A stretch of DNA of 64,000 bases from NCBI RefSeq assembly GCF_004210375.1, contig NC_134833.1, forward strand, positions 19,275,396 through 19,339,395. Reading direction: 5' to 3'. This DNA comes from Tachypleus tridentatus. Its lineage: Eukaryota; Arthropoda; Merostomata; Xiphosura; Limulidae. Position numbers and translations under genes: made by a program. Position 1 is the stretch's first letter; the number at the start of each line of letters is the position of its first letter. The notes beneath the pieces were generated by a model. That model worked only from the letters and a program-made list of their open reading frames with translations. It was not told the origin of the DNA and searched no databases. Below are positions 1-52,000 of the stretch, piece after piece.

Positions 1-2260
1 ATTACTCCACTGCTGTTTACTATAGTTAATTACTCCATTAATGTTTACTATAGTTAATTACTCCACTGCTGTTTACTATAGTTAATTACTCCACTGTGTT
101 TACTATAGTTAATTACTCCATTAATGTTTACTATAGTTAATTACTCCACTGCTGTTTACTATAGTTAATTACTCCATTGCTGTTTACTATAGTTAATTAC
201 TCCACTGCTGTTTACTATAGTTAATTACTCCATTAGTGTTTACTATAGTTAATTACTCCACTGCTGTTTACTATAGTTAATTACTCCATTAATGTTTACT
301 ATAGTTAATTACTCCACTGCTGTTTACTATAGTTAATTACTCCACTTGCTGTTTACTATAGTTAATTACTCCACTGCTGTTTACTATAGTTAATTACTCC
401 ATTGCTGTTAACTATAGTTAATTACTCCACTGATGTTTACTGTAGTTAATTACTCCATTAGTGTTTACTATAGTTAATTACTCCATTGCTGTTTACTATA
501 GTTAATTACTCCATTAATGTTTACTATAGTTAATTATTCCACTGCTGTTTACTATAGTTAATTACTCCATGCTGTTTACTATAGTTAATTACTCCATTGC
601 TGTTTACTATAGTTAATTACTCCATTAGTGTTTACTATAGTTAATTACTCCACTGCTGTTTACTATAGTTAATTACTCCATTAGTGTTTACTATAGTTAA
701 TTACTCCACTGCTGTTTACTATAGTTAATTACTCCATTAATGTTTACTATAGTTAATTACTCCACTGCTGTTTACTATAGTTAATTACTCTACTGCTGTT
801 TACTATAGTTAATTACTCCATTGCTGTTTACTATAGTTAATTACTCCATTGCTGTTTACTATAGTTAATTACTCCACTGCTGTTTACTATAGTTAATTAC
901 TCCACTGCTGTTTACTATAGTTAATTACTCCATTGCTGTTTACTATAGTTAATTACTCCATTGTGTTTACTATAGTTAATTACTCCATTGCTGTTTACTA
1001 TAGTTAATTACTCCACTGCTGTTTACTATAGTTAATTACTCCATTGCTGTTTACTATAGTTAATTACTCCACTGCTGTTTACTATAGTTAATTACTCCAC
1101 TGCTGTTTACTATAGTTAATTACTCCATTAATGTTTACTATAGTTAATTACTCCACTGCTGTTTACTATAGTTAATTACTCCACAGCTGTTTACTATAGT
1201 TAATTACTCCACTGCTGTTTACTATAGTTAATTACTCCATTGCTGTTTACTATAGTTAATTACTCCATTGCTGTTTACTATAGTTAATTACTCCATTGCT
1301 GTTTACTATAGTTAATTACTCCACTGCTGTTTACTATAGTTAATTACTCCACTACTCGATGTTTACTATAGTTAATTACTCCACTGCTGTTTACTATAGT
1401 TAATTACTCCATTGCTGTTTACTATAGTTAATTACTCCACTGCTGTTTACTATAGTTAATTACTCCATTGCTGTTTACTATAGTTAATTACTCCATTAAT
1501 GTTTACTATAGTTAATTACTCCACTGCTGTTTACTATAGTTAATTACTCCACTGCTGTTTACTATAGTTAATTACTCCACTGCTGTTTACTATAGTTAAT
1601 TACTCTTTATTGCTGTTTACTATAGTTAATTACTCCACTGCTGTTTACTATAGTTAATTACTCCACTGCTGTTTACTATAGTTAATTACTCCACTGCTGT
1701 TTACTATAGTTAATTACTCCATTGCTGTTTACTATAGTTAATTACTCCACTGCTGTTTACTATAGTTAATTACTCCACTGCTGTTTACTATAGTTAATTA
1801 CTCCATTGCTGTTTACTATAGTTAATTACTCCACTGCTGTTTACTATAGTTAATTACTCCACCAGCTGTTTACTATAGTTAATTACTCCATTGCTGTTTA
1901 CTATAGTTAATTACTCCACTGCTGTTTACTATAGTTAATTACTCCACTTAGTGTTTACTATAGTTAATTACTCCACTGCTGTTTACTATAGTTAATTACT
2001 CCATTGCTGTTTACTATAAGTTAATTACTCCATTGCTGTTTTTACTATAGTTAATTACTCCACTGCTGTTTACTATAGTTAATTACTCCACTGCTGTTTA
2101 CTATAGTTAATTACTCCATTGCTATTTTACTATAGTTAATTACTCCACTGCTGTTTACTATAGTTAATTACTCCATTGCTGTTTACTATGGTTAATTACT
2201 CCATTTGCTGTTTACTATAGTTAATTACTCCACATGCTGTTTACTATAGTTAATTACTCC
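1..2260. repeat. 28-bp satellite-like tandem array
   Basis: The window opens inside a head-to-tail array of a 28-bp unit, roughly 80 copies. The constant part reads TTTACTATAGTTAATTACTC and is followed by a short variable block (CACTGCTG, CATTGCTG, CATTAATG or CATTAGTG). Most variation sits in that block; a few copies carry 1-3 bp indels. The array runs off the left edge and into the assembly gap on the right, so its true length is unknown. No promoter or coding signal is apparent. Confidence 0.97.
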
Positions 2261-2760
2261 NNNNNNNNNNNNNNNNNNNNNNNNNNNNNNNNNNNNNNNN
2301 NNNNNNNNNNNNNNNNNNNNNNNNNNNNNNNNNNNNNNNNNNNNNNNNNNNNNNNNNNNNNNNNNNNNNNNNNNNNNNNNNNNNNNNNNNNNNNNNNNNN
2401 NNNNNNNNNNNNNNNNNNNNNNNNNNNNNNNNNNNNNNNNNNNNNNNNNNNNNNNNNNNNNNNNNNNNNNNNNNNNNNNNNNNNNNNNNNNNNNNNNNNN
2501 NNNNNNNNNNNNNNNNNNNNNNNNNNNNNNNNNNNNNNNNNNNNNNNNNNNNNNNNNNNNNNNNNNNNNNNNNNNNNNNNNNNNNNNNNNNNNNNNNNNN
2601 NNNNNNNNNNNNNNNNNNNNNNNNNNNNNNNNNNNNNNNNNNNNNNNNNNNNNNNNNNNNNNNNNNNNNNNNNNNNNNNNNNNNNNNNNNNNNNNNNNNN
2701 NNNNNNNNNNNNNNNNNNNNNNNNNNNNNNNNNNNNNNNNNNNNNNNNNNNNNNNNNNNN
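2261..2760. other. Assembly gap (500 N)
   Basis: Exactly 500 unknown bases directly follow the 28-bp array. The round number suggests a placeholder rather than a measured length, so more array copies may be missing. Confidence 0.99.
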
Positions 2761-19037: not shown

Positions 19038-19202
19038 TTACTTCATGAGTGTCTTCAACAACAACAACACTTAATTTAAAAAAAAAGGGTTTTTTAAAAG
19101 ACAGTTAATGAACACATGTCTAGCCAGAACTTGACACTAATGTTAATAAGCAATGTATCATAAACGTCAGTGTTATTTCAAATAAAGAAATCTTGAAAAA
19201 GA

Positions 19203-19468
19203 ACCAGAGTGGAAATCATAATCTCCCCCCCCTTAAGAACCAGAGTGGAAATCATAATCTCTCCCCCTCCTTAAGAACCAGAGTGAAAATCATAATCTCC
19301 TCCCCCCTCCTTAAGAACCAGAGTGGAGTGAAAATCCACTCTTAAGGAGGGGGGAGGAGACTATGATTTTCACTCCACTCTGGTTCTTAAGGAGGGGGGA
19401 GGAGACTATGATTTTCACTCCACTCTGGTTCTTAAGAACCAGAGTGGAAATCATAATCTCTCCCTCCT
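19203..19468. repeat. Cluster of direct and inverted 35-40 bp repeats
   Basis: The unit AACCAGAGTGGAAATCATAA plus a C-rich stretch and CCTTAAG occurs three times directly, then twice inverted (GGAGGGGGGAGGAGACTATG, CACTCTGGTTCTTAAG), then once more directly. Adjacent arms can form long perfect hairpins with a C-rich strand and a G-rich strand. The inverted part lies at about 19334-19435. Confidence 0.95.
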
Positions 19469-22036: not shown

Positions 22037-22045
22037 ATGAGAAAG
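22037..22045 (+). CDS. Ance: M2 peptidase coding exon 1 (start codon)
   Basis: Proposed first coding exon: ATG AGA AAG followed by donor GTGCGT, phase 0. It adds MRK to the hydrophobic stretch encoded by exon 2, giving a typical n-region (two basic residues) plus h-region. Exon 2 has no ATG of its own, so a start must come from upstream; this is the nearest ATG that I noticed with a donor in the right phase. The 5' UTR part of the exon is not delimited. Another start further upstream remains possible. Confidence 0.6.
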
Positions 22046-25000
22046 GTGCGTAGGAACGTATTTATGTAACTTAAAATAAAATATTAATTAAATAATATTT
22101 GTAAATATTTAATAGCTAATTTAACCTGAATATTTTGATAGAATATCGGTTGTGTGGAAAAAGAATTGTTTTTTTTCTCTTTTCCACTAAATGTAAAAAG
22201 ATAAACAATGAAAAACACGTATTTTAAGTTTTCTCAACGAAAAAATATTAACAGACAATCCGAGAGAACTATTTCTTGTATTTCGGGAAAAGCTATACGA
22301 GGGCTACCTCGAGTAGCTTTGCGCGAAATTCAAAAACCAACAAACGAGGGAAGACAGCTAGCTATAACCACCCACCGTCAACTCTTGGACTCCTCTTTTA
22401 TCTGCGAATAGTTGGATTGACCGTCATATTATAACAGTCTCATGGCTGAAGGGAGAGCATGTTTGGGGCGACAGGGATTCGAGCCCGCGACTTTTAGATT
22501 ACCTGTCGAGCACTTTAACCACCTGGCCATGCTGGGCCTCTTAAATGTAGAATAGAACAAAATGTTCATAATTTTACAAAGCTATTTACAGACAACCGAA
22601 CGTAATGTCTAACTTATGTACAAGAGAGAAGGAAACGTATTGGCCTTATCCACTCATAATTCTTTATTACTATTAACTAACCGGACAGTGGGATTTGACT
22701 CTCGATTTTATAAGGTACTTCGGCTTCAAAGTGCAGAGCGCAATTTTCGGCAACGAGTTGGGAACCGCGAATCGTTAGTCATAATCTAGGTACAAAAACA
22801 TATGGCTAAACCCAGGAAATGCAGTACTTGAGAAAGGTAATTTGTTTGCAATTAATCACTAAACTGCACAATTGGTTATCTGTGCTCTGCCAACCACTGT
22901 TATTTAAACCAGGTTTGTAGCGTTGCAAGTGTGCGAAACGTAGAAAGCCCTTGTGTAGTTTTGTGATTAACTTTAAATAAACACAGAAACCGTATTTAAG
23001 TATAGTTTTATTGTGTTTTAATTAGTTACGTTTCATTTGAATCTCTTCTTTTCGTTTCAAAGTCTGGATTAGCCTGATAGTTAGGGGGGCTAAACACACA
23101 ATATATGGGTCGTAAGCTCGAATCCCGTTATCGAAAATTCTCGCTCTTTCAGCCGAAGGGGCGTTATAATGTTACGGTTATTACCAGCTCTCCAGCAGTG
23201 TGGTACGTAGTTCAACGATCTCACTTCAAACTTCACACTTCAGTGCCAACCTAGCTTGAATTTTTAACTACTTTGACGTGTAAAAGTGTTTTACGAAACC
23301 GCTGATGAAACGGAGTGTTTTTTAATTAATTAAGTGCCATATTTGTATTCCACGCATAAGTTAAAAACCGAGTAAAATTTAGTTGTTTATGTAGTTACGC
23401 CAAATGTCTTATCTTAACTCTAATCAGTGTTTACAAGCAGCTATGACGATTTGTTTGAAACTTAGCCTAAAGCCACACTATGACCTATCTGTGCTCTTCC
23501 CGCCACTGATATCGAAACTCGATTTCTAGTGCTGTAAATCCGTAGACATTTTGCTGTGCTACTGTGTGTGGGAGGGTGTTTATGACCGTGATTGTTTACA
23601 TAACTATTCAACAGTTTTGGAACTTAACACTTGTTGTCTTTCTTTTTACAGTTGAACTTAACACTTGTTGTCTTTCTTTTTACAGTTGAACTTAACACTT
23701 GTTGTCTTTCTTTTTACAGTTGAACTTAACACTTGTTTTCTTTCTTTTTACAGTTGAACTTAACACTTGTTGTCTTTCTTTTTACAGTTGAACTTAACAC
23801 TTGTTGTCTTTCTTTTTACAGTTGAACTTAACACTTGTTGTCTTTCTTTTTACAGTTGAACTTAACACTTGTCTTTCTTTTTACAGTTGAACTTAACACT
23901 TGTTTTCTTTCTTTTTACAGTTGAACTTCTTAGGTTCAGTATTTCTTATAATTCAGTTCACTATAACCCACGCCAACGATGCACGTCTCCAAGAAACTTT
24001 TGTGGATCGTAAGTTTAAATTATTTTTTCTGTACTTAATCTAAACTATGAAACTTCTTTTACACTGATCCGAAAAACAAACTTGGTTGTTAACACTTTTC
24101 AACACGAGTTAACCCAAAACTCGAAACATGTAATAAATAATACATAATATTTAGCATCATGAACTACATTACTAGAGATATCAGACGAAACTGTGGGTAA
24201 GTAAACACAGATTTCCTTAAAGTCTTGTGTAGGTAAACAAGAAACCTTCAATCTTCCATAATATGGAAATTTTCGCAATCTGAAAGTTGCGAGTTCGAAT
24301 CTCCGTCACGCTAAACATGCTTGCCCTTTCAGTCGTGGGGGGCGCTATAAAGTGACGATTAATCGCACTGTTCATTTGTAAGAGAGTAGCCAAAGAGTTG
24401 GCGGTGGGTGGTTATGGCCAGTTGCTTTTCTTCTAGTCTTACACTGCTAAATTAGGGACAGCTAACACAGATATCCCTCGAGTAGCTTTGCGCGAAATTC
24501 GGAACAAACCAAGCCAAACTCTGCTAAATTAGGAACAGCTAGCGCAGATAGCCTAGCGTAGCTTTACACGAAATTAAAAAAAAATAAAAACATTGGAAGA
24601 AGCAGAGGTTGCAGCCATAACCTTTGGAGGTTGTGCAGCAGTTTTTTATTTTCTGAAAAACAAACAAATAATTAATGGTCAGGATTAATTTATCCCTTTT
24701 GTAGTAAATAAGATCCAATCAAGATAAATATAATTAAAAATCAACAACGCACCACTAACAAGTAAAATACGATGACGACAAACAAGTACCAACCATGAAA
24801 GAATTGTTTGTTTGTTTGTTTTTGAATTTCGCACAAAGCTACTCGAGGGCTATCTGTGCTAGCCGTCCCTAATTTAGCAGTGTGAGACTAGAGGGAAGGC
24901 AGCTAGTCATCACCACCCACCGCCAACTCTTGGGCTACTCTTTTACCAACGAATAATGGAATTGACCGTCACATTATAACGTCCCCACGGCTGAAAGGGC

Positions 25001-31000: not shown

Positions 31001-34000
31001 ACAAATTTGAAATTCTCTCTACAGAAACTCGCCAGAAATTGGAACAGTTTGATGAAGAATACGGTCGCTTGTGGTGGGTACAACAGAGCTTGGACTGGAA
31101 TTTTACTACAAATATTACCAGACAAAATACTGACGTCAAAGAACAATTCGCAGAAGATTTCGACTCGTGGATGATGAAATGGAAGACATGGGCACGATCC
31201 ATTGACACGTTCGCTTTGCCCCCGATTATGTCTCGTGCAGTGACACTCATGTTACGAGGAGTCGTATTTCGTGACAAAAGCTTGTCGAGGTAGTTTTTAA
31301 TCGTTCAATTTCACATTAAAAGACTTAGAACAGCTAATATTTGATACAATAGTGGTAAATTACTATAACTAATATGTTCGTCACGTTAGAAATATGTTCC
31401 CTAATACGTTTTTTTTTTGTTTCTTTAAACTGAATTTATAAGTATTTTAGTTTTTTTTCGAGACTAAGGGTCGCTGATTCGAATCCCCGTCGTACCAAAC
31501 ATGCTCGCCCTCTCAACCGTGGGGGCGTTATAATGTTTCGGTCAATCCCACTGTTCGTTGGTAGAAGAGTAACCTAAGAGTTGGCGGTGGGTGGTGATGA
31601 CTAGCTGCCTCTCCTCTAGTCTTACACTGATAAATTACGGACGGACAGCGCAGGTAGTCCTTATGTAGCTTTGCGCAAAATTAAAAAAACAAACAAACAC
31701 ACTTTTTGGAGACGTTCTCCTTATTGGCAGTTTAAAATATTCTTCTGTTCATGTTTTCGTGTGGACTGTTTTAACAATTTTTATAGACAGATTAAAGTCG
31801 ACTCGCTGGAGTGAATGTTCAACATGAGTAGGATGAATGTTTCAGATGATTATTGTTTGCGGACTTACAACGCTAGAAACAGGGTTTCGATACCCGTGGT
31901 GAGAAGAACACAGATAACCCTTCGTGTAGCTTTGTGCTTAGCTTCAAATAAACAAAACCAGGATTATCAGTTTTAGTTATTTTGTGGGCCCGGTAACAAA
32001 TCATGGACAATTTGTTTGCCACGACGTTTCTAGAAAGGTTTTCATATAACTGAGTATCTTAGCACGAGACAGAACCCTCAGAGGTTGCTAGAATATTTCC
32101 AGGTAGTGAGTGGGCTTGAAACAAGCTGTCTTATTTTTAATATTCAACAAGCTGGTAAACAAACGTACCTTTATTTGTAAGACCCTTGAAGTTTTCCGTA
32201 GTTGTCATAGCTACCAGTAGATTATCTAAACAGAGAGACGTTCGAAATGTGAAACCTATGTCACGTAAATCTTTATGATATAACCAATGTTCTCTTCATA
32301 CGTGTGAATCTAGGGCCAAAAATATCACTGTGACCGAGGGTATCCAACTAATGAAACAGGGCATTGCAATCATTACGAGTAACAATCTAAATACAACATT
32401 ATGAATTCGCTATAGTTATTACCGGTTTTATGATATTTGTTTTAAATAGGTAGCCTGCACTGATCGTAAGTTAATATTAGCGAGTCATGTTATGGTCGTA
32501 AGTTAATATTAGCGAGTCATGTTATGGTCGTAAGTTAATATTAGCGAGTCATGTTATGGTCGTAAGTTAATATTAGCGAGTCATGTTATGGTCGTAAGTT
32601 AATATTAGATAGCGATGTAAGTGTTTTATAGCTTTATTATAAGTGACATGTGGAGAGTCAGATTCAGATTTCAGGATTAGATGCCCTCTTATTTAGTTTT
32701 AGTCGATTTTGAATTCAGTAAGTTATTTAGCTGCTGAACAGCTATCGAAAAGTGGATTAAATGGTGTTGCGACTTGAAAAGCTATATTTGCGCATACCAT
32801 TTCACTGGAAGGTTCATTTAATTTGTTTTATTATCGTTGGTGGTAAGAGTCTGCTATTTTATTTTATGCAAAGCCACACAGGGGGATCTGCTATGTCCAC
32901 TGCAAGGAATGGAACCCCGAATTTTAGCGTTGTAGGTCCATGGAATTATCGTTGTCACACTGGGAGACAGCGTGTGTGTGTTGGGCTATCTGCTGAGTCC
33001 ACCGAGAAGAATCGAACCCATGATTTTAGCGTTGTAAATCCGTAGACATACCGCTGTGCCAGCTGGGGACTGGGAGACAGTAATAATATTCAAAGCTAAC
33101 ATTGAGGGACAGTAATAATATTCTAAATTATCAATGAGAGACAGTAATAATATTCAAAGTTAACAATAGAGACAGTTCTAAGGTTTAAAGCTAACAATGG
33201 AGACAGCAATAAGATTCAAAGTTAACAATAGAGACAGCTCTGAGGTGTAAAGCTAACAATGGAGACAGTAATAAGATTCAAAGTTAACAATAGAGACATT
33301 TCTAAGGTGTAAAGCTAACAATGGAGACATTAATAAGGTTCAAAGTTAACAATAGAGACAGTTCTAAGGTTTAAAGCTAACAATGGAGACAGCAATAGGA
33401 TTCAAAGTTAACAATAGAGACAATTCTAAGGTGTAAAGCTAACAATGGAGATAGTAATAAGATCCAAAGTTAACAATAGAGACAGTTCTAAGGTTTAAAG
33501 CTAACAATGGAGACAGCAATAGGATTCAAAGTTAACAATAGAGACAGTTCTAAGGTGTAAAGCTAACAATGGAGACAGTAATAAGATTCAAAGTTAACAA
33601 TAGAGACAGTTCTAAGGTGTAAAGCTAACAATGGAGACAGCAATAAGATTCAAAGTTAACAATAAAGACAGTTCTAAGGTGTAAAGCTAACAATGGAGAC
33701 AGTAATAAGATCCAAAGTTAACAATAGAGACAGTTCTAAGGTGTAAAGCTAACAATAGAGACAGCAATAAGATTCAAAGTTAACAATAGAGACAGTTCTA
33801 AGGTGTAAAGCTAACAATGGAGACAGCAATAAGATTCAAAGTTAACAATAGAGACAGTTCTAAGGTGTAAAGCTAACAATGGAGACAGTAATAAGATCCA
33901 AAGTTAACAATAGAGACAGTTCTAAGGTGTAAAGCTAACAATGGAGACAGCAATAAGATTCAAAGTTAACAATAGAGACAGTTCTAAGGTGTAAAGCTAA

Positions 34001-37000
34001 CAATGGAGACAGTAATAAGATTCAAAGTTAACAATAGAGACAGTTCTAAGATGTAAAGCTAACAATGGAGACAGTAATAAGATTCAAAGTTAACAATAGA
34101 CACAGTTCTAAGGTTTAAAGCTAACTATGGAGACAGTAATAAGATCCAAATTTTACAATAGCGACAGTTCTAATGTGTAAAGCTAACAATGGAGACAGGA
34201 ATAAGGTTTAAAGTTAACAATAGAGACAGTTCTAAGGTGTAAAGCTAACAATGGAGACAGTAATAAGATTCAAAGTTAACAATAGAGACAGTTTAAGGTG
34301 TAAAGCTAACAATGGAGACAGTAATAAGATTTAAAGTTAACAATAGAGACAGTTCTAAGGTTCAAAGTTAACAATAGACACAGTTCTAACGTTTAAAGCT
34401 AACTATGGAGACAGTAATAAGATCCAAATTTAACAATAGCGACAGTTCTAATGTGTAAAGCTAACAATGGAGACAGGAATAAGGTTTAAAATTAACAATA
34501 GAGACAGTTCTAAGGTTTAAAGCTAACAATGGAGACAGTAATAAGATCCAAAGTTAACAATAGAGACAGTTCTAAGGTTTAAAGTTAACAATAGAGGCAG
34601 TTCTAAGGTGTAAAGCTAACAATGGAGACAGTAATAAGATTCAAAGTTAACAATAGAGACAGTTTAATGTGTAAAGCTAACAATGGAGACAGTAATAAGA
34701 TTTAAAGTTAACAATAGAGACAGTTCTAAGGTTCAAAGTTAACAATAGAGACAGTTCTAAGGTGTAAAGCTAACAATGGAGACAGTAATAAGATTCAAAG
34801 TTAACAATAGAGACAGTTCTAAGGTGTAAAGCTAACAATGGAGACAGCAATAAGATTCAAAGTTAACAATAGAGACAGTTCTAAGGTGTAAAGCTAACAA
34901 TGGAGACAGTAATAAGATTCAAAGTTAACAATAGAGACAGTTTAAGGTGTAAAGCTAACAATGGAGACAGTAATAAGATTTAAAAGTTAACAATAGAGAC
35001 AGTTCTAAGGTTCAAAGTTAACAATAGACACAGTTCTAAGGTTTAAAGCTAACTATGGAGACAGTAATAAGATCCAAATTTAACAATAGCGACAGTTCTA
35101 ATGTGTAAAGCTAACAATGGAGACAGGAATAAGGTTTAAAGTTAACAATAGAGACAGTTCTAAGGTTTAAAGCTAACAATGGAGACAGTAATAAGATCCA
35201 AAGTTAACAATAGAGACAGTTCTAAGGTTCAAAGTTAACAATAGAGGCAGTTCTAAGGTGTAAAGCTAACAATGGAGACAGTAATAAGATTCAAAGTTAA
35301 CAATAGAGACAGTTTAATGTGTAAAGCTAACAATGGAGACAGTAATAAGATTTAAAGTTAACAATAGAGACAGTTCTAAGGTTCAAAGTTAACAATAGAG
35401 ACAGTTCTAAGGTGTAAAGCTAACAATGGAGACAGTAATAAGATTCAAAGTTAACAATAGAGACAGTTCTAAGGTGTAAAGCTAACAATGGAGACAGCAA
35501 TAAGATTCAAAGTTAACAATAGAGACAGTTCTAAGGTGTAAAGCTAACAATGGAGACAGTAATAAGATTCAAAGTTAACAATAGAGACAGTTCTAAGGTG
35601 TAAAGCTAACAATAGAGACAGTAATAAGATTCAAAGTTAACAATAGAAACAGTTCTAATGTGTAAAGCTAACAATGGAGACAGGAATAAGATTCAAAGTT
35701 AACAATAGAGACAGTTCTAAGGTTTAAAGCTAACAATGGAGACAGTAATACGATTTAAAGTTGACAGTGGAGACAGTTTTAAGGTTCAAGGTTAACAATG
35801 GGAAACAATAATAACATTAAAAGTTAACAAGAAACGAAGAAAATAAGGTATTTAGAATTAGCTGAAGTGGGTTATATGTGTAGACGTGATTGTTACGAAG
35901 TTTCTCCCACACACATAAAAGAAAGATATGGGAATGCCTCACCCTCACCATTTTATAATATATCTTAAATGTAGGAACTGCCCATTTCACATTTGAAATA
36001 ATCTGTTGAAATCTAGAATGTATTTTGCTAATTGATCGAGGGACAAATAACAAAATTACGAGTATTGTTGTCATCCGGATTTATTTCCTACGGATGTCTT
36101 AAGTAGATCGAATCGAGCTGATTGACGAACTTGTTAATTTGTATTCATTCGTCTAGTATTCACGGAACGTAATTTCAATTGAATATTTGGTACCCAGCAA
36201 TACTGTCTAATAATCTTTGAAACATTAAAAACAGAAATCACTGATGGGTTATCATTTTTGCGACAAAAAACTCGGATGAATTGTGTGTTTCGACTGAATC
36301 TCACACACGGTGAAGCAAGTTTTTGTAACACCTTAGTGATTTTCAATTTTGTAATATTTTACTGGACGAACGAAACATTTTGTGTTAAACAAGAATGTGA
36401 TAACACTATAAACTATTAAGTGTTGTCATTTCCTGCATCAACTCATTCTTTAATATAAGGTGAAGGTGGTTATGAAAATCAGATTGCTGGTGTAGTTTAT
36501 TAACTAAATTGTATAAATAACAGAATAATATTTCATTTCTATTATCTAGGGATACTAATAATGTTACTTTTCAGTTAGTAAATACCATAGCAACGAAGTT
36601 ATATGTAAAAGATGAACCAGATTAAAGGGACGTGTTAGTTAAGATTGAATTAATAGTCGAAACTCTTTAATGATCATTTCGAATGATTTAGGCTTAGAAT
36701 ATTTTGAATAGAACAAACTTTCTGGATATTTTCAATAGGTTAAAAAAGGAGAAAATATTTATCTAGTGGCTTATTATTTTTATGATTCAGTTCTGAATTT
36801 CAAAATAAATTGTTATTGGTAAGATACACTAAGACCCCTTGCGGAATTTTTAATAAGAAATTGAGGAAATTTAATAAGTTTTGATCAGCAAGTAATAATA
36901 TTTTGTGGTTTTGCGATAAATGATAATGGTACGAATATGTAACTTACTGGAAAAGACATATGTAAAGCAGTTAACATCTTATTTAACTTTTCCACTTCGA

Positions 37001-40000
37001 TATTAATTACGTAACATATAGTTGAACATTTTACTATATATATCTTCCAGTTTCAAGCCCCTATCCCCGGTGACACAACGGTATTTTTGCAGACACACAC
37101 CACTAGCAATCAGGCTTTGATACTCGTGGTGGGCAAAGCACGGATAGCCCATTATGTAGCCTTGTACCTAACTCAAGATAATCCAATTTCAATGCTCTAC
37201 GAAGAAACTCAGTATAGTGTTCTGAATTACAATTTTAATTTTTATTTCTCTTTTTATTTATTCGCCCCTTTAAGGTCTCATTTTATTAATAATTAAAGAA
37301 GGGGGTAGTTTTTATTGACGCATTTCTTTTGTGTTTAGTATCTAACAATTACCAGCTATAGAACATCTATATTAACAGTTGACATAATACATATTGATAA
37401 TATCCACTTCAACTGAAATTTGATCAAGATATGTCAGCCGTTTGAAGACAAAGATTCGCATGATTTATGCTTCTGGAAGAGTAGATTTTCCGGATCTACA
37501 AATCTCATTGCGAGGAGAGAACGAAGTACAGCAGTTCATGTCGACTACAAGAAACCCAGAGTTGCTAGCAAACTGCTGGAAAAGATGGACTTCCAGCGTA
37601 GGACGAAGAATTCGTGGTCCATTCCTAGCACTAATTGACACACTAAACAAAGCAGCGGTTTCAAATGGTAAGTTTATAGTTTCGTACATGACCCCCTTTC
37701 CATGCCAATAGTCCAATGGGCTTATATCGTTAAAAATTGGGTTTAGCTACCCACAAACAAACGAAGGAAAGAAAAACATAGTTTCACACATCGAATGGTC
37801 TGGGTATGTGAAAGAGTTACCCTAATAATTCTGCAGTACCAACACATCTCTAACCTTTTTTAAATTTAAATAACATTGGTGCGATAAATGGAGTATTGAG
37901 ATTGATACACACATGAGAAATGAATTGTTTGTTTCACCAAATCACCAAACTTCAAGAAGTTAGACACTTCACTAAATTATCTTGGTCTCACCTATGATAT
38001 GAGACTTTCTTAGGCCAATCATCTAAATAGCATTACAAAGAAAATTAGGGGAAAAAATATTAATGTTAGAAGTCTGGCTGACAACAACGGGACCCGGCAT
38101 GGCCGGGTGGTTAGGGCGCTCGACTTGTAATCTGAGAGTCACGAGGTCAAATTCCGGTCGCACCAAACATGCTCGCCCTTTCAGCAGTGGGGACGTTATA
38201 ATGTTACGGTCAATTCCACTATTCGTTGGTAAAAGGTGCTCGACAGACTTCTACAATACTCACTAAACTATTAAAAAAAAAAAAAACCCGAACGAAAACG
38301 TTATGTTAATTGGTTTTAGATAGCTATACATACATGAGGGAAACCAGGCTTAGCACTAGTTCTCTCTAAAAATTTACCCAAATATCCTTCAAAGACGAGC
38401 TAGCGCTATGTAGTAAAAGCTGAAATGTTTATGTGCCTTATGAGCGAAATATTTGGAGTATACATACGGACTTCTTTTTTTTCTGAATTAACAAAAGCAA
38501 GAAATATTATAATCATGTATGTTCCAAGTGTAACTGTTCTGGACATGGTCGAAAAGGGCTAAGTGGTTTAAAAACATGGGTACACAATTCAGTGGCTTTC
38601 TATTTTGAATCTAACTGTATGATATTAACTATAACCACGAGCCTATACCATGTATAGTGATTACGGTTAATACATGCCACGAGCCTATACCATGTAGAGT
38701 GATTACGGTTAATACATGCCACGAGCCTATACCATGTGCAGTGATTACGGTTAATACATGCCACGAGCCTATACCATGTATAGTGATTACGGTTAATATA
38801 TGCCACGAGCCTATACCATGTAGAGTGATTACGGTTAATACATGCCACGAGCCTATACCATGTAGAGTGATTACGGTTAATATATGCCACGAGCCTATAC
38901 CATGTAGAGTGATTACGGTTAATACATGCCACGAGCCTATACCATGTAGAGTGATTACGGTTAATATATGCCACGAGCCTATACCATGTAGAGTGATTAC
39001 GGTTAATACATGCCACGAGCCTATACCATGTAGAGTGATTACGGTTAATACATGCCACGAGCCTATACCATGTAGAGTGATTACGGTTAATATATGCCAC
39101 GAGCCTATACCATGTGCAGTGATTACGGTTAATACATGCCACGAGCCTATACCATGTATAGTGATTACGGTTAATACATGCCACGAGCCTATACCATGTA
39201 GAGTGATTACGGTTAATATATGCCACGAGCCTATACCATGTGCAGTGATTACGGTTAATACATGCCACGAGCCTATACCATGTATAGTGATTACGGTTAA
39301 TATATGCCACGAGCCTATACCATGTAGAGTGATTACGGTTAATACATGCCACGAGCCTATACCATGTAGAGTGATTACGGTTAATATATGCCACGAGCCT
39401 ATACCATGTGCAGTGATTACGGTTAATACATGCCACGAGCCTATACCATGTATAGTGATTACGGTTAATATATGCCACGAGCCTATACCATGTACAGTGA
39501 TTACGGTTAATATATGCCACGAGCCTATACCATGTAGAGTGATTACGGTTAATATATGCCACGAGCCTATACCATGTAGAGTGATTACGGTTAATATATG
39601 CCACGAGCCTATACCATGTAGAGTGATTACGGTTAATATATGCCACGAGCCTATACCATGTAGAGTGATTACGGTTAATATATGCATAAGGTTCTCCAGA
39701 TATAGCGAACAACACTAATATTTCGAACTAAGTACACTTGTGGAATTCCATTTTTCAATCCTACAATAGAGTAGAGATATTCTGATGTTTCTTCTGCTGT
39801 GAATGTTTATGAATAAAATATTTTTACACTGTTACAGTGTAAAAGACATAAAGACACGCAAGAAAAATTAGCGTAGCTACTAATATAAACCATGAACACA
39901 TATTAAAACATTAGTGTATTTAATTATCTATTGTTGACACCAGGTGTATTTTTAGTTTTGTTCCAAATAGGTGGCTGGCTCTCACCAGTTGCCGACTGAC

Positions 40001-43000
40001 ATTTAATAACACGAAATAATCCAACGAAGAAATTCGTTGGATATTTCAAAATCAGCAGAATTTTCAAGATGTTATTTGTCTTACTTATACTTTAGACATT
40101 TGTTCGTAATTTAATTGGAAAATTGTGTTTCATTTTAGGTAATAATACTCCGTTTGATCTTTTAAAGGATACACAGACGTTGGGGAATCATGGCGAACTC
40201 AGATGGAGATAGAGGACGTTACCACAACAGCAGAACGCCTTTGGGAGGAAACAAGCGACCTCTATCGGCAGCTCCACGCGTTTGTAAGGCACCGCCTACT
40301 ACTCAGATATGGCCCTGGTACTGTTCAAGATGAAGGCTCTATCCCTGTTCACTTGTTTGGTAAGATTAGTGTAATAGTTTTTCTCCTTAAATTACTTTAT
40401 TTTCTTCTATAACCTACAATTATTTAATCTCATAGGTAAGTCTGAAGGCTTACGACTTTAAAAATCGGTTTCGATACCCGTAGTGAGCAGAATACGGCTA
40501 GTTCACTCTGTAACTTTGTGTTTAATAGCAACCAAATCTACCATGCGAGGGCCCGGCATGGCCAGGTGGGTTAAGGCGTTCGACTCGTAATCTGAGGGTC
40601 GCGGGTTCGAATCCCGGTCGCACCAAACATGCTAGCCCTTTCAGCCGTGTGGGCGTTATAATGTGACGGTCAATCCCACTATTCGTTGGTAAAAGAGTAG
40701 CCCAAGAGTTGGCGGTGGGTGGTGATGACTAGCTGCCTTCCCTCTAGTCTTACACTGCTAAATTAGGGACGGTTAGCACAGATAGCCTTCGAGTGTGTGA
40801 AATTCAAAAACTAAAAAAAACAATCAACCATGCAATATTTCTCTAGCTAGTGAAAAAAGGTGAAACAGAATATTAATATTTAGTGGTCTTGTATTGATAG
40901 AATGGAATATTAAAGGCAGTACATGTGAAAAACGAAATATAACACACTCCATCTAGTGACGAAACTTTACAGAGGAAATGTAATTATTGTAGAGACAAAG
41001 TTTCATGACAGGAGTAATGGCTGGTCGTAAATTAATTTTTTACCAAAAATGTACTATGAAGTAATCATTATGTCCAAATCGGTGTAAAGCTATCATCAGA
41101 TTATGTTTAGAATATAATATTTATCATTAATGGACCATAAAAGCAATATGCCAAACAATTATTATTTGAAGACTTATAACGCTGAAAACCGGGTTTCGAT
41201 ACACGTGGTGGGCACGGTACAGATAGCCCATTGTGTACTTTTGTTCTTAACGGTGAAAAAAGCAGTATGGACTATGTACTATTATCAGTTGTACACTTGA
41301 AGACAATTCTAATATAAAGCACATAAACTTTGCTCTCGAACATTGCTTGTTCTCTCGTGCTACTAAATAACGTTAGGTTTATATCTACGTAATGAGCGTG
41401 CGTAGGAAGCTTTTTAGATTTCGTTAAATAATATACGAACGAGTTTAGAAACGCGTACGTAAAGTGATAGATGGATGTGCTACACATTTGAAAGATAAGG
41501 ATATTTGGGGAATGAATCTGGTATCTCTCACAGCCTCATCTCAGACAGCAGTGTTTATGTGTTAAGTTTTTGTGTGTGAATTTATTCAGTTGTCTATAGT
41601 ACCTGTACTGTCATTTTGTTGAAGTTCAACATTTAATCCAGATACCCAGGCTTAGAAAGTGTTGCTAGATCTCGTGTCTCTTACTGGATAAATTGACTTG
41701 TTTGTCATTTTTACTGAGAACATTCGGCTCAATATATACATATTTATTACTAGCAGCGTTTAGTGGGATTCAACGCGTTGTGGAATAGGTTCAAGCCACT
41801 TAGAAACCTACATACGTAACTTCATATGTGAGTAATAGAGGCAGATCATAGGTAAGAGAAGTATTCCGAATTGGTTTTTACATTTTATAAACTCTGTGCA
41901 TTTAAGAACAAAATACCACCACCACCACCACAACAACAACAACACAAAAACTTAAGCGAAGCACGAATTTTCTCTTTAGTAATTTATTAAGTAGATTAAG
42001 CACACAGACAGTAATGTATTAAACAGACCTATGCATAATCACACATGTGTTTTTGTTTTTTTTAAACCAGGGGACCTGTGGGGAGAAACGTGGACGGGTA
42101 TATTGGATGTCATTCAGCCTTCAGAAGGAACTTCCCCCCAAACAAGCACACCAACAAACTACAGTATTGTTAATGAATATTACAAGACTGCTGAACGTTT
42201 CTTCACCTCTATGGGTTTGTTCAACATGACTCCAACTTTCTGGCGAAAGTCCTTGCTGACAGCTCCATCTGACGGGAGATTAGTTGACTGTCACGGATCA
42301 GCCTATGATATGGGAAAAGCCGATGACTATAGGAATGTTTTCTTTAGTATATCATAATTACAATAGTTTTTCAAGATATGCTAGAATATTTCTTTTACAT
42401 CAAAACTATGGGCTAACAGAAGTAAGTGAATTAATCCGAGAGTTTATACATTTATTTACGTAAAAAGGTTTTTAACACATTAGAAGTGTTATAAAAGGCC
42501 TATTCTTGCAACGTTATATCACAAAAATACAGGTGACAGACTGAAAGCTGAACGTGTCAAACTATGGTCCACTGAGCTAGTTAGTTACCACTAGAAATCT
42601 AATAACGTAGTCTCAGGACATCATACGATACAGAGACGAGGATATTCATATCTAATGCATGATAAGAAAGTTAAATGTTCAACCTAAGAATCGTATATAG
42701 ATTTGTGCTAATGGGTAATATAACTAGAAAGGGGTGAATCATACAAAAATCTTCTTTTATGAAACAAAATTAAGAGCAGAAACATTGTTTTTCACGTGTT
42801 ACGGCAATAACATGGACCTGTGTGGAGTTTTATGGAATCATATATTCAGAATAACAATGGTTATACAGACAAAGTGTCCTATAGAACCATGTTGGTGGGT
42901 GAATTACATCCTTATTTATCAAAAGTATCACTCACAAACACTCTAGAAGATAACCGACTTTGTTATCTCGTTGTTAAAAATAGTTAATTATATTTAAATC

Positions 43001-46000
43001 CATTAAAATAATTGAGAAAGACTTCTAACTATTACGCTCTCCGCTAGTACCGCGGTATGTCTGCGGACTTAGAACGCTAAAATAAGGGGGTTCGATTCCC
43101 CTCGGTGGGCTCGGCAGATAGCCCAAGGTGGCTTTGCTATAAGAAAACACATTCTAAATATTACTTTGCTTATGTTTCAAATATTTTCAGTATTTCGTCG
43201 TGTTCTTCTCTTCATAATAACACTATCGGCGTTTCATTTTATGCTTAAGTACTCGCCCAATGTCGCAAGCTATCTTCGAGCTTACTGTAGACTATTAGGC
43301 TTAGTGTAAATGTTAATATACTGTTACCTTTTCGTTGTAAATATAAATATCTAATAAATCAGTTGCAACACCTTGCACAGATTATAGAGCCTCGATTGAA
43401 TACCCTGAATTTGTTTTACAGGATTAGAATGTGTACCCAACTCAGTAGGGAAGGTCTACATCGTGTTTTTCACGAGATGGGTCACGTGCAGTATTACATG
43501 GCTTACCGATTTCAACCTGTCATCTTCCGGTCTGGAGCTACTTCCGCTCTTCATGAAGCACTCGGTGAAGCGATGGCGGAATTAGCCTTATCGCCTGAGT
43601 GTATGAGAAGACAAAATATATCCCTAATTCCAGAAACCGTATCAGGTATATTAATTATAAGAAGCAGATTTAAAAAAAGCAAAAACATAAAATAAACAAA
43701 TGAATCACGTGGTTTGTTTTAACGTTACATAGTGATTGATTTGCTAGTTTATTTATTTAGTGAGTTTCGCGCAAGGTTACACGAGGGCTATCTGTGCTAG
43801 CCGTCCTTAATTTAGCAGTGTAAGACTAGATGGAAGGTAGCTAGTCATCACCACCCACCGACAACTCTTGGGCTACTCTTTTTACCAACGAATAGTGTGA
43901 TTAATTGTAACATTATAACGCCCCAACGACTGAAAGGGCGAGCATGTTTGGTATGACGGAGATTCCAATCCGCGACTCTCACATTACGAGTTGAGTGCCT
44001 TAACCACCTGGCCATGCCAGGCCTCACAGTAATTGAAACATGGAAACGCAATAGATGAAGGTAAAAAAGAATAAACAAACTAGAAACCACATATTACCCT
44101 GCTTAGAGGAAGGTGTGTGCTGATGCAAAACGCTCGTGCTTCATGACGTCTATATATAACAATAAATTGTTATAGTCAGCTGATCATGACATGGCGGCGA
44201 AAATATTCATTCTTTTTCTGAATGGGTTTGGTCAGCATATTTTATATATTATTACTATAATACATAAAGTAATTTTGCACAGTCGGAAAACACGTACAAA
44301 TTAGTCACCGTGTAAGAGCCAGGATGGAACTAGAACTACGGTCACGTGAGATAAAAACCAGTGATGTTGGGCAAGTTTGTAAAATGTCAATAAAAACGTT
44401 AAAGGGTGAGTACGAGGGGTATTTAATTGTTTTTCTGAGGGGTATTTAATTGTTTTTCTAAGGGGCATTTAATTGTTTTTCTAAGGGGTATTTAATTGTT
44501 TTTCTGAGGGGCATTATGCTTACACATGTTGGGCTGAAGAGTAAAACATTTCAAAAAACAAAAATCAATGTTCTCCATGGAAGCGACGAAGATCGAATAC
44601 AGAGATTCCAGGATAATATCACGCTTGGAAAAGGCATCTCCAAGCTAATCAAGAACAACGCCTCCTTAGGCAAAGTTAAGACCATGAGTACGAAAGAGGA
44701 CCTGTTTGTTCATAAAGCAGTACCTTCTGGTACTATTAACGTTGGCCCGGCATGACCAGTTGTTTAGGGTGCTCGACTAGGTCACGTGTTCGAATCTCCG
44801 TCACATCAAATATACTTGTTCTTTCAGCCGTGGGGGCGTTATAATGTAACGGTCAATCACACTATTCGTTGGTAAAATAGTAGCTCGAGAGTTAGCGATG
44901 GGTGGGGAGGACTAACTGTTTTCCTTCTAGTCTTGCACTGCTAAATTAGGGACGGTTAGCGCAGATAGCCCTCGTGAAATTCAAAAACAAACAAAGAAAC
45001 TATTAAGGACACAATAAACGTTGATTTGAAGTGAGCGAAAGCTCACAAGCCAAGAGCTTTCAGTAATTTATCAAACACCTCGAAACCAAGAGTTGTTTCT
45101 CTAAGAAAGATGGCCGAAACAACCGAAATCAGAACAATCTTGATGCAGGAGGTTTTGTCCATCCTGAGGACAGTGGGTGTCTTATGGCAAACTACACAAC
45201 ATTAGTGGACAAGCTTGTTATCAAACAAGCACCACTCCATGGGCCAATGTTAAAAATAAAGGAAATATAAACAGGTCGACGTCGGGGACAATATGGCTTC
45301 CAACGCTAGTATGTCGACTTTAAGAATTGTTATGTTTTACATGAATAAATTATTCTATACTGTCATGTAACTCATGCTGGTTTCGAGACATCTTTTCAGA
45401 CTTTGTGCCGAATAATTACTTTCATTTACAATTTTTTATATTCTTCACACCCAACATGTTCGTCCTTTCAGCCATTGGAGCGTTATAAAATGATGGTCAA
45501 TCCCATTATTTGTTAGTAAAAGAGTAGCTCAAGAGTTAGTGGTGGGTGGTGATGACTAGCTGCTTTTCCTCTAGTCTTACACTGCTAAATTAGGAACAGC
45601 TAGCGCAGCCTCGTCGTACCAAACATGCTCGCCCTTTCAGCCATTGGAGCGTTATAATATGATGGTCAATCCCATTATTTGTTAGTAAAAGAGTAGCTCA
45701 AGAGTTAGTGGTGGGTGGTGATGACTAGCTGCTTTTCCTCTAGTCTTACACTGCTAAATTAGGAACAGCTAGCGCAGCCTCGTCGTACCAAACATGCTCG
45801 CCCTTTCAGCCATTGGAGCGTTATAATATGATGGTCAATCCAATTATTTGTTAGTAAAAGAGTAGCTCAAGAGTTAGTGGTGGGTGGTGATGACTAGCTG
45901 CTTTCCCTCTAGTCTTATTCTTCTAAATTAGTGACGGCTAGTGCAGAGAGCCCTCATGGTCGTATGCTGAAGTTATTTGGTGTATTCCTGTGTAAAATTA

Positions 46001-49000
46001 TTGTAAAAACACATGTGATAATTATTTTGACATTACACATGGAAAAGTAATTTCTGCGAAGTACAAAGGCTGTAGTTCTGTTAGTCTGAAAAGTCGAAAT
46101 AAATCTGTTAGCTTTTATATAGTTAGAAATTATTCGAAACGAAAATAAATATTAAAGTTTAATGAAATTCTGGTTTCCATTGTATAAGGAATATTTATGG
46201 GAAACTACGTATTTCAGCTTACTGAATGAAAATATTAACTATAATAAAAGGAAAAAACTGAGTAAGTTTGAATAACAGACAAATTAATAATTAATTAATC
46301 TGTTTGTTTTGGAATTTCGCACAAAGCTACTCGAGGGCTATCTGTGCTAGCCGTCCCTAATTTAGCAGTGTAAGACTAGAGGGAAGGCAGCTAGTCATCA
46401 CCACCCACCGCCAACTCTTGGGCTACTCTTTTACCAACGCATAGTGGGATTGACCGTCACATTATAACGTCCCCACGGCTGAAAAGGCGAGCATGTTTGG
46501 CGCGACCGGGATGCGAACCCGCGACCCTCAAATTACGAGTCGCACGCCTTAACACGCTTGGCCATGCCGGGCCGTAATTAATTAATAATAAATAATAAAC
46601 ACGGTTGACGATTTCTGTACATTATTCGCCTCACATAAAAACTGTATAAGTTATTAAAATAATGTGTGGTTTCCTATATACTTGATAACACGCTTGTTTT
46701 ATGATATTTACTTCGATCCACACACGTTCATTCAATAAAAAACAAAAACACTTTCTGATTAATCTTCCCCTCTCTTTCAGACGATGTCATAAGTTTGTTA
46801 TTACGTCACGCCTTGAGGAAGATTGCCTTTCTACCTTGGGCTTTGGTTGTGGATAAATGGCGTTATGACGTGTTTAGTGGCGCCATCTCTCCAGGAAAGA
46901 TGAATAAATGGTGGTGGAAACTTAGGTTGAGTTTTGCATGTTTTGTCTATTACTAATTAATGATGCTAACGAATCATGTTTGTAGTTTAAGTAGATTAGG
47001 GGACCTCGGTTTTATTTAGCGACCAAAATATTAAGATTAGAATTTTGAAATTATTCTTTAGGTACCGACAAAAATTTCTTACAGATGGTTTTCAGCAGTT
47101 TTCGTTAATAATGTTCAAGATAAGAGAATAGCCCTAAAGGTGTACTGAAATTAGTGGATTAATCCTTTAGAAAATCTAACGCCTATATAATTAAAGGAGT
47201 GACGTGTGTTGTGCGCGTGGGAAGTTTTGAAAGTTCATTAATCTATACAAAAGTGGAATTAGGAGTAAGAGTATGTGTTTTCTTATAGCAAAGCCACATC
47301 GGGCTATCTGCTGAGCCCCAACGAGGGGAATCGAACACCTAATTTTAGCGTTGTAAATCCGTAGACTTACGGCTGTACTAGCGGGGAGCTTAGGAGTAAC
47401 AAAGTACAAGGCCCGGCATGGCCAAGCGTGTTAAGGCGTGCGACTCGTAATCTGAGGGTCGCGGGTTCGCATCCCCGTCGCACCAAACATGCTCGCCCTT
47501 TCAGCCGTGGGGGCGTTCTAATGTGACGGTCAGTCCCACTATTCGTTGGTAAAAGAGTAGCCAAGAGTTGGCGGTGGGTGGTGATGACTAGCTGCCTTCC
47601 CTCTAGTCTTACACTGCTAAATTAGGGACGGCTAGCACAGATAGCCCTCGAGTAGCTTTGTGCGAAATTCAAACACAAACAAACAAACAAACAAGAAAGT
47701 ACAGGTGATGTTACGACATGTCTAATGGAAGAGAATGTTTGTGTAAAACTGTTATACAAAAACAAAGAAAGAGTATCTGAGAAACGTCACCTCTGAGAGA
47801 TTCGTCTCAAATGGAAATGTCTATTTGTTAAAGTTTGATGTGTGAATTTCTTTATTAATTTATATACACTACAAGTGGCGGGACCTCCATCACATTGAGA
47901 GTTAGTACTTTCTTCTGTGGCCAGGTTTTGACGGCGTTGTTGGATTTGGTGTATGTTTCCAGTGACGTCGACCATTTTGTCGTTTTTGATGAGATCATGA
48001 CTCAAAGTGTTTTGCGGGTATCACGTATCACGTGGTTTTTTTTTTAATAGGTTTAACCCACTTAGATTTGACCTCACAGTCATTGAAACGCTCTGCACGG
48101 CCATGAGATTCGCTCAGAACATCACGTAGGCAATCTCATGCGTGAGTATCCTAGGCAGATCACGTGACTGTTTTACTTCCTTTCAATACACAACATTGCC
48201 TTCACATTATACGAAGTTCGTGAGTTCCAATACAAAATACCACAGCTGAAAATGTTTTGTACTCGAGTCAAAGCTTTCCCTCTAGTATTACCCCCAGCGA
48301 CACAGCAGACTTACAACGATAGAATCCAGGTTTAGATACCCGTGGTGAGCAGAGCAGAGATAGCCTATTATGTAGCTTTGTGCTTAATTACAAACAACAA
48401 CAACTTCCCCTAGGGCCTGGAAAAGCACCACATTGAAGTTGTTGTTGCACTAATACCTCAGATATTTCAGATTGAGGAAAGATATGGTCATTTTGACTAT
48501 TTTAGCAAATAACTCATAACTGGCACAATTAAATATTCTATGTTATCTTTGGTGTCATAAAACAATCAATATCAAATCTTAACGTTCTTAAAACGTACAT
48601 TTTCTCTGTTTAGGGAAAAGTTTCAGGGCATAAAACCACCTGCTCCGGGTACAGAGAAGGATTTTGATCCTGGATCGAAGTACCACATTGCAAACAATAT
48701 ACCATATCTCAGGTGAGCCGGACATAAGTATCATATTGTAGGCAATATACCATAAGTCACGTAAGTAACTTCTAAATATCATATCGAAAACAATACATCA
48801 CATATCTCAGGAGACCAAACGTTTCATTTATCTTTACAGATAAATACAAAGATTAATCTGTGATCATAGATGAGCTTTGCGTATCAATGTAAAAACTACA
48901 CTGTTGTTAGGACTACATTTAGGCATCAACAACACAAACGAAGCTTTAAGAAAGTACAAAAATAAACAGTGTTCTTCTGTATTAAGTTGAACACAAGTTA

Positions 49001-52000
49001 ACTTTCAAAGGAGAAAAGTTAAAACCAGTATGTGTTCACAGTACTTGGAGCCAATACGCTACAAAGTGTGTTCACTTGGAGCCAATACGTTACAAAGTGT
49101 GTTCACTTGGAGCAAATACGTTACAAAGTTTATCATTTCCATTACTAAAGAACACGAATTTTATTATTAATTTATTTTGAGGCTGTTATAACTATTGTTT
49201 TTATACAATTATATTTATATCGTGCTGAAATATTTAATTAATTTCAAGCAGTTATTTTGATTGAGTAAAACTACGAATAAATTACTGATTTTGTGAACTG
49301 ATGTCCCTAAATCCAGAGAAGCGAGAGTTTTCATTCGGCGAAGCTATACACTTCAATATCTAATGATATTAACTACACAAGCTACACTAATATTCTAATG
49401 GTAAGATAACGTTATTGACAGTTTCTAATGGACTTAGGAAGTCAGATTTGTAGTTCGTTTTCTAACTGTTTCTATGTTTTCCACAACTACTGGTTCTTTC
49501 TTTACATTATAATATACTACAATGACAACACTGTGTTAAATAAATCAGCGTGTCTTTGCTCTTAGAACCCAATCCAATAGAATGACAACACTGTATTAAA
49601 TAAATCACCTTGTCTCTGTACTTACATTACAATCCATTAGAACGAAAACATCATGTTAAAGAAATCACCGTGTTTCTGTAAAAACATTAAAATCTTCTAC
49701 AATGACAACATTATGTTAAAAAACCACCATGTTTCTGTTCTTACAATACATCCAGTAGAATGACAACATTGTGTTAAAGAAATCACCGTGTTTCTGTACT
49801 TACATTACAATCCACTACAATAACAACATTATGTTAAAAAACCACCATGTTTCTGTACTTACATTACAATCCAGTAGAATGACAACACTGTGTTAAAGAA
49901 ATCACCGTGTTTCTGTAAAAACATTACAATCCACTACAATAACAACATTATGTTAAAAAACCACCATGTTTCTGTACTTACATTACAATCCAGTAGAATG
50001 ACAACACTGTGTTAAAGAAATCACCGTGTTTCTGTAAAAACATTACAATCCACTACAATAACAACATTATGTTAAAAAATCACCTTGTCTCTGTACTTAC
50101 ATTACAATCCATTAGAACTAAAACATCATGTTAAAGAAATCACCGTGTTTCTGTAAAAACATTACAATCCACTACAATAACAACATTATGTTAAAAAACC
50201 ACCATGTTTCTGTACTTACATTACAATCCAGTAGAATGACAACATTGTGTTAAAGAAATCAACGTGTCTCTGTTCTTACAATACATCCAGTAGAATGACA
50301 ACACTGTGTTAAAGAAATCAACGTGTCTCTGTTCTTACAATACATCCAGTAGAATGACAACATTGTGTTAAAGAAATCAACGTGTCTCTGTTCTTACAAT
50401 ACATCCAGTAGAATGACAACATTGTGTTAAAGAAATCAACGTGTCTCTGTTCTTACAATACATCCAGTAGAATGACAACATTGTGTTAAAGAAATCAACG
50501 TGTCTCTGTTCTTACAATACATCCAGTAGAATGACAACATTGTGTTAAAGAAATCACCGTGTTTCTGTACTTACATTACAATCCAGTAGAATGACAACAT
50601 TGTGTTAAAGAAATCACCGTGTTTCTGTACTTACATTACAATCCAGTAGAATGACAACATTGTGTTAAAGAAATCACCGTGTTTCTGTACTTACATTACA
50701 ATCCACTACAATGACAACACTGTGTTATATGTTATATTAAAGAAAAATATATTTTTTCTTCTTACCTATGCTTTTATTATTTCTTTTTGTAGAACACTAA
50801 AATAAACACGTCATGATGTCCATCTAATATTTTTATCGGATCATGTTTGCAATTATTGAAATAAGAATTCCAAATACAAAATTTAAATCCTAAATTTCAG
50901 TGTATCCAAAGTTCCAGTATTCATAATGTTTCAATGCATACAAAGCTCCAGTATTCATAATGTTTCCATGCATACAAAGCTTCAGTATTCATAATGTTTC
51001 AATACATACAAAGCTTCAGTATTCATAATGTTTCAATACATACAAAGCTTCAGTATTCATAATGTTTCAATACATACAAAGCTCCAGTATTCATAATGTT
51101 TCCATGCATACAAAGCTCCAGTATTCATAATGTTTCAATACATACAATTTGTAATACTGATAATAATTATTACATCAAACTTTTTAATATTTTTCATGTG
51201 GACACTCAACGTTTTTCTTTACGGTTTCTTCAGTAGTGTTCGACCAAAACAGAAACAGTGAAAGCTCTAAGCAAAACGTTGAGTGTTCACTTGAAGAAGA
51301 AAAATAAATTTCGGTGTTATAATGTCACTTATTACTGACTTTATTCATAAGTTATTTATGAATAAGTGAATGTATGATGAATGCTATTATTGTTTTAATG
51401 ATATTATGGTCTTAGATGTAATTGTTATATTGTTTATGAATTCACTACTGTGTTAAGAAAGCCATATTATTGAATTATATGTTCTTACTTTATTGTTTAT
51501 GGATCAGCTAATGTACGAAGAAGGTCATGCTGGTGATTTAATAAAAAATATTCCTGTGTTGTTTACGAATTAACTAACGTATTAGGAATGCCATACTGTT
51601 TCGATTATATTGTTGATTTAGGTATTATTGTTGTATTGTTTAATAATTTTCTATTGTATTAGAAATGACATATTGTTAAGTTTATTCCGGTATTATATAT
51701 GAATCCACTAATGTATAAGGAATGTCATATCGTTTTGATTATGTCTAGGTATTACTTCAGCACATTTCTCCAATATCAACTGCTCCAGGATCGGTGCTCC
51801 GAAGTGCCTTCAGAAGCCGCTAAGCCACTTCATCGATGTTGTTTGTTTGGCTCAACGCAGGCAGGTCACAAACTCAAGTAAGCGTCAGTAACGTGTACAA
51901 AGTTGTAATTTTCATGAAAACGCAGGTGGACCGTAAACTCAAGTGTAGTGTCAGTAAGGCATACAAAACTGCAGTAGTTACAAGATTTATTGAATGCAGA

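Follow-up and report, generated by a model that had tools for sequence, protein, structure and literature searches.

Tandem repeats that straddle an intron–exon boundary and carry splice signals have been described in amphioxus as "mirages", a term that traces to the Adh locus (Canestro and colleagues 2002, as cited in PMC3087553). They are reported from Adh3, the globin genes BflGb6 and BflGb9 and the troponin C gene, with similar repeats in PGBD5; homogenization inside a cluster is also described, and the BflGb6 and Adh3 mirages are stated not to disturb regular splicing (PMC3087553, PMC3902484). Their units are given as 10–72 bp in Adh3 and 150–160 bp in the globins (PMC3087553). The array that we describe here, at the predicted acceptor of exon 2 of an angiotensin-converting enzyme (ACE) gene, resembles them in that it, too, is a tandem repeat spanning an intron–exon boundary with splice signals. 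Its 34-bp unit falls within the Adh3 range and is shorter than the globin units. Unit number is said to differ between amphioxus haplotypes (6 and 3 in BflGb6); here it is 9 and 16 in two gene copies that are probably alleles. It differs in that many but not all amphioxus units are described as having splice signals, whereas here, in both gene copies together, AG is present in 25 of 25 units and TTAAC in 24 of 25; moreover, the earlier hosts were lancelets, whereas the present one is a chelicerate. A minisatellite that multiplies a splice site was reportedly the subject of a 1995 paper on IFI6, but the sites are donors there and acceptors here. The internal tandem repeats of human segmental duplications (on average 30-bp units and 4 copies, some at exon–intron boundaries) likewise are variable minisatellites that alter gene structure between near-identical gene copies, but their described effects are longer exons or additional introns, and they are not presented as rows of complete acceptors (PMC2812944). 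The ACE array is striking but not unprecedented: mirages are known from lancelets, and this is probably a further case. We found no chelicerate case of such splice-site repeats among open-licence papers. The array would extend mirage minisatellites beyond the lancelet cases found, and it bears on the origin and persistence of repeats at exon edges.

The stretch of DNA that we analyzed (the window, 64,000 nt) is C9:19275396–19339395 of a 2.17-Gb assembly, where C9 is contig NC_134833.1; positions given without a contig are those of the window. TRF reported the minisatellite with period 34, 9.2 copies, 96% matches and a score of 583. Every unit proved to be a complete acceptor, as an earlier note on this DNA had claimed: a branch-like TTAAC is followed by pyrimidines, by ACAG and by the 8 bases with which exon 2 opens. 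The unit, TTGAACTTAACACTTGTT[G/T]TCTTTCTTTTTACAG, thus places 26 intron bases and 8 exon bases across the predicted intron–exon boundary, in nine copies; the exceptions to this formula are unit 8, which is 3 bases short, and unit 1, which starts TGGAAC. The nine acceptors offer exon starts at 23652, 23686, 23720, 23754, 23788, 23822, 23856, 23887 and 23921. Seven of the eight spacings are 34 bp and one is 31 bp, and the note's nine units stand while their uniform length of 34 bp does not. TTAAC lies 24 nt before the end of the AG in all of the nine units but one, in which the distance is 21 nt.

Acceptor strength was assessed with a simple home-made score built on base frequencies, applied to 3591 AGs on the + strand of the window. 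The acceptors at 23921 and 23754 shared the top score of all (9.07), and the remaining seven array acceptors scored 7.56 or 7.93, so that the array minimum was 7.56; five later ACE acceptors scored 1.8 to 8.4. Twelve minisatellite loci were counted in the window (unit of 10–100 bp, at least 3 copies), and the acceptor array was the only one in which every scored AG exceeded 5. Tandem repeats make up 20.5% of the window; in the 210 kb of upstream sequence that we also retrieved, the share is 29.6%. Given the first figure, it is unsurprising in itself that an array touches one of the splice sites in a gene with about eleven exons. Recursive splicing was rejected by inspection, the junction being AG/TT and not AG/GT.

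Table 1. Features of the window and how they were placed.
Feature	Position	Strand	Basis
Assembly gap of 500 N; homology to the second ACE copy begins at 2761	2261–2760		
Proposed exon 1 coding part, ATG AGA AAG (MRK), donor GTGCGT	22037–22045	+	Consensus scan, predicted
Intron 1 (1875 nt with splicing to the last acceptor)	22046–23920	+	Follows from predicted exon 1 and last acceptor
Decoy acceptor units upstream of the last, eight in all; exon starts from 23652 to 23887	23618–23886	+	ACE frame closed by all eight
Minisatellite of nine 34-bp units (one of them 31 bp), each combining a full 3' splice site with 8 exon bases	23620–23928	+	TRF, unit inspection
Exon 2, 29 residues, signal-peptide-like by eye; donor ATC/GTAAGT, phase-1 exit	23921–24008	+	Predicted
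Exon 3, where ACE homology begins; 3' edge placed by eye	31025–31290	+	
Later ACE exon, approximate edges	37450–37667	+	
Later ACE exon, approximate edges	40168–40359	+	
Later ACE exon, approximate edges	42071–42330	+	
Later ACE exon (HEMGH), approximate edges	43422–43640	+	
Later ACE exon, approximate edges	46781–46925	+	
Later ACE exon, approximate edges	48594–48713	+	
Later ACE exon, approximate edges	51744–51877	+	
Later ACE exon, approximate edges	58593–58751	+	

By its sequence, the gene is a predicted M2-family ACE. The exon pieces joined from 22037 to ~46925 gave a query of 462 residues, of which residues 33–462 matched PF01401 (Peptidase_M2) with an E-value of 2.5e-109 and 367 bits, against a curated cut-off of 23. 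The joined pieces also matched ACE chains of the PDB, and HEMGH and HEALGE aligned with HEMGH and HEAIGD of the ACE chain 7q3y_A; we take the former to be the HEXXH zinc motif and the latter to hold the downstream glutamate of the predicted enzyme. A family search of the whole assembly returned eight exon matches of this gene in the window, including the exon at 48594, which is absent from the joined pieces. An exon guess at 36180–36450 showed no ACE likeness by eye and was dropped. Elsewhere, the family search found exon matches at C9:106.80–106.92 Mb, apparently a cluster of about four gene copies, and at C4:99.01–99.03 Mb, on another contig, apparently a single gene. In 7.7 kb of the latter relative, no signal-peptide exon was recognized and TRF found no tandem repeat.

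The placement of the first two exons is predicted. The MRK exon had the best donor score of three candidate ATG exons (phase-0 exit, donor score >5, upstream of the array), which supports, as a prediction, the first exon proposed earlier; its nine bases (three residues) do not differ in the second gene copy described below. A scan of 14.0–31.0 kb for open internal exons leaving in phase 1 yielded 12 candidates from 75 acceptor–donor pairs, and exon 2 ranked first among them in both score and hydrophobicity. Its hydrophobicity (2.22) was slightly below a preset line of 2.3, above which none of the 12 candidates lay, and its donor scored low (1.2 on a home-made matrix). It joins exon 3 in the ACE frame, as exon 3 opens with AA and completes the codon CAA. 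The exon 2 acceptor is the only placed ACE exon edge clearly inside an array; a 1.9-copy repeat at 42300–42335 touches the end of the ACE exon that starts at 42071.

Which of the nine acceptors could yield ACE? Read from MRK, the last one (23921) leaves the frame open through exon 3. From seven of the eight upstream acceptors, the frame ends within the array, at codon 26 or 27; from 23887, it ends at codon 53, in exon 3. The ACE frame contains TGA at 23888 and TAA at 23894, shortly before the last ACAG; therefore, no upstream acceptor feeds ACE, whatever the first exon. In the second gene copy, stops fall at codon 27 (exon 2) for 14 of the 15 upstream acceptors and at codon 53 (exon 3) for the remaining one; the ACE frame is closed for all upstream units of both copies (8/8 and 15/15). 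Given the predicted gene, these stops demonstrate that only the last unit, since it alone is joined to the real exon, can give ACE. The earlier note had reached this conclusion for 23921 on the strength of the MRK exon, and the argument is stronger than was stated there, being independent of MRK. The note had also singled out the +99 acceptor as preserving frame and meeting a stop within the array, with the others mostly shifting frame; +99 does behave in this way, but +201 is also a multiple of 3, and the in-array stop is the fate of most upstream acceptors. Its reservation that transcripts might start downstream of the array is weakened, as exon 2 has no ACE-frame ATG there.

A second, near-identical ACE copy lies ~192 kb away in the same assembly and has sixteen acceptors, with exon starts from C9:19106617 to 19107127, all 34 bp apart. 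The assembly has exact matches to the repeat unit at two loci (7 matches, five of them in the window array), and the same two loci alone were reported when exon 3, or exon 2 together with 192 intron bases, served as query. The two arrays carry different unit variants as well as having different lengths. One pyrimidine tract is common to 10 of the 16 units of the second copy, among them the last, and the change 19T>G is found in 6 of 9 units of the window copy vs. 3 of 16 in the second; the variable sites are few. The supposition that copy number varies is thus supported by 9 vs. 16 units in two gene copies of one assembly.

The window aligns with the second copy from 2761 to 63960 in a chain of 13 blocks (48,406 columns, 97.7% identity). 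In the second copy, no stop interrupts any of the ten ACE exons that we compared; base differences number 10, and 4 of them alter the protein. The protein difference in exon 2 is 23933 G>T (Gly to Cys), and the exon at 48594 shows no difference. Outside tandem repeats, non-exon bases differ by 1.03% (467/45142; 0.27% to 1.54% by segment) and exons by 0.64% (10/1564), a modest sign of constraint; one 13-kb non-exon segment, at 0.27%, differs less than the exons. These figures are drawn from ungapped columns outside tandem repeats, in alignments that lie on the main diagonals and exceed ~1 kb; they place exon 1 (9 bases) outside the exons and count the exon at 48594 as non-exon. A TAG in the second-copy exon match C9:19130682–19130840 was set aside because it looks like intron: the difference lies at 46928, past the GT at 46926.

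In our judgement, the two copies are probably alleles, and the sequence duplicating C9:19085672 onward is likely an unpurged haplotype, or else a recent duplication. Homology starts at the first base after the assembly gap, which makes the second copy probably the other allele, and the uneven divergence also favors alleles. Each of three nearby pieces had one further full-length match of 99–100% among the matches listed (two pieces at C9:18.58–18.60 Mb, one at C2:0.5 Mb), a pattern suggestive of second haplotypes left unpurged; a single control piece from C4, much of which is dispersed repeat, had no such further match. The heterozygosity of two horseshoe crabs is reported as 0.8% and about 0.65% (PMC7210998, PMC6390705). 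Against alleles, the three pieces match places other than the expected partner, and homology stops inside the first contig, before the contig end. It continues at C9:19341051, 19365001 and 19395001, and ten places sampled from 19405001 to 19474500, compared with C9:19062001–19272000 only, gave no collinear match (four had no match; six had shorter ones, out of order). A long 28-bp satellite precedes the assembly gap, occupying window positions 1–2260 and the final 24.8 kb of the upstream sequence that we retrieved.

We consider it likely that the array is a mirage minisatellite that is mostly spliced out as intron, on the supposition that the last acceptor is the one used. The tandem repeat would have arisen across the intron–exon boundary. 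GAACTT starts 28 nt upstream of ACAG and recurs 34 bp further on, within the 8 exon bases of the unit. Slippage, or unequal exchange, involving these two copies could have duplicated exactly one acceptor with its 8 exon bases, and further exchange could have led to 9 and 16 units. Unit number would drift as in neighboring minisatellites. All 10 of those with at least 3 units in both gene copies, paired by position, differ in length (25 and 42, 92 and 60, or 7 and 22 units, for example), and length instability is therefore ordinary here, the acceptor array not being alone in it; among the second-copy arrays listed, none with 3 or more units corresponds to a further window array, at 44414. A 34-bp unit and a 7-unit difference, with no pressure for multiples of 3, are expected if the array is intron.

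As to splicing, we think, in the light of published work, that the spliceosome would mostly pick the last unit by pairing the donor at 24009 with the nearest acceptor across exon 2. Because exon 2 would sit between two long introns (1875 and 7016 nt), exon definition should favor that unit. The upstream units would leave with the intron, save for a leak of mis-spliced mRNAs, most of which would stop at codon 26 or 27 and might be expected to be degraded. We thus expect the last unit to dominate, with some leak. The earlier note held that scanning favors the first unit. That does not follow, as each unit has its own branch-like site; scanning would take the first AG after the chosen branch point and so does not choose between units. 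Likewise, acceptors more than about 12–20 nt apart are described as typically chosen at the first splicing step, with their own branch points (PMC9225289), and AG scanning therefore does not decide between units. According to the same paper, sites closest across the exon are preferred where flanking introns are long; an upstream site is favored across introns (Reed and Maniatis, as cited there); and with 3' splice sites of near-equal strength and long introns, the upstream preference is reduced, not reversed (PMC9225289). Further observations count against predominant use of the last unit: it is not uniquely strong, as 23754 ties with it and as, in the second copy, its pyrimidine tract is shared by nine other units, and the low-scoring exon 2 donor is a weak anchor for exon definition.

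It is possible, though unlikely, that the units truly compete and that the fraction of productive ACE mRNA falls with unit number, in which case the 9- and 16-unit copies would differ in secreted ACE. Nine strong, near-identical acceptors, each with a branch-like site, would suit such a dial, as would the non-productive outcome of every upstream choice and the different unit numbers of the two gene copies. However, the undisturbed splicing reported for amphioxus mirages, the closest precedent, speaks against it, as it does against the many non-productive mRNAs that the earlier note expected, and since the neighboring arrays drift too, length gives no sign of regulation. A more elaborate version, in which the array is a length-tuned splicing rheostat whose identical acceptor modules compete, unit number sets the odds of reaching the productive unit, and fast minisatellite mutation provides heritable variation in secreted ACE, with 9 and 16 units as two settings, strikes us as improbable. 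Alternatively, exon 2 might lie outside the ACE mRNA, which would have a downstream start or another first exon, leaving the array an ordinary acceptor-like minisatellite. Exon 1, after all, is three residues from a consensus scan, and the gene model is predicted. Yet exon 2 stands at the top of its 12 scan candidates, is hydrophobic and signal-peptide-like, and fits the phase of exon 3; an alternative start at ATG 23979, which would make the array 5' UTR, was rejected because it exits in phase 0 and exon 3 needs phase 1. We therefore rate this reading as highly improbable. That the true locus has one acceptor, multiplied in assembly, as the earlier note had allowed for, is scarcely credible despite the assembly gap and the probably unpurged second copy in the region: two separately assembled multi-unit arrays that differ in length and unit variants argue against a one-off assembly error, be they alleles or paralogues.

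The two arrays, in which only the last of nine or sixteen near-equal acceptors can be productive, amount to a natural experiment in spliceosomal choice between equal 3' splice sites. Should the copies be alleles, any effect of unit number could be read in a single heterozygous animal.

Other repeats of the window drew our attention. A 42-bp array (38603–39727; 25 units here, 42 in the second copy) is open in one + and two − frames, with repetitive reading frames of 361–375 residues; as 42 is a multiple of 3, the three open frames may be due to chance. At 19199–19436, pyrimidine-rich repeats of 36–45 bp adjoin one another in inverted orientation, and the first of these arrays has 3.4 units here and 4.7 in the second copy. 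On the minus strand of 62404–63999, reading frames resembling reverse transcriptase are followed by a GIY-YIG-like stretch, an arrangement resembling that of Penelope-like elements.
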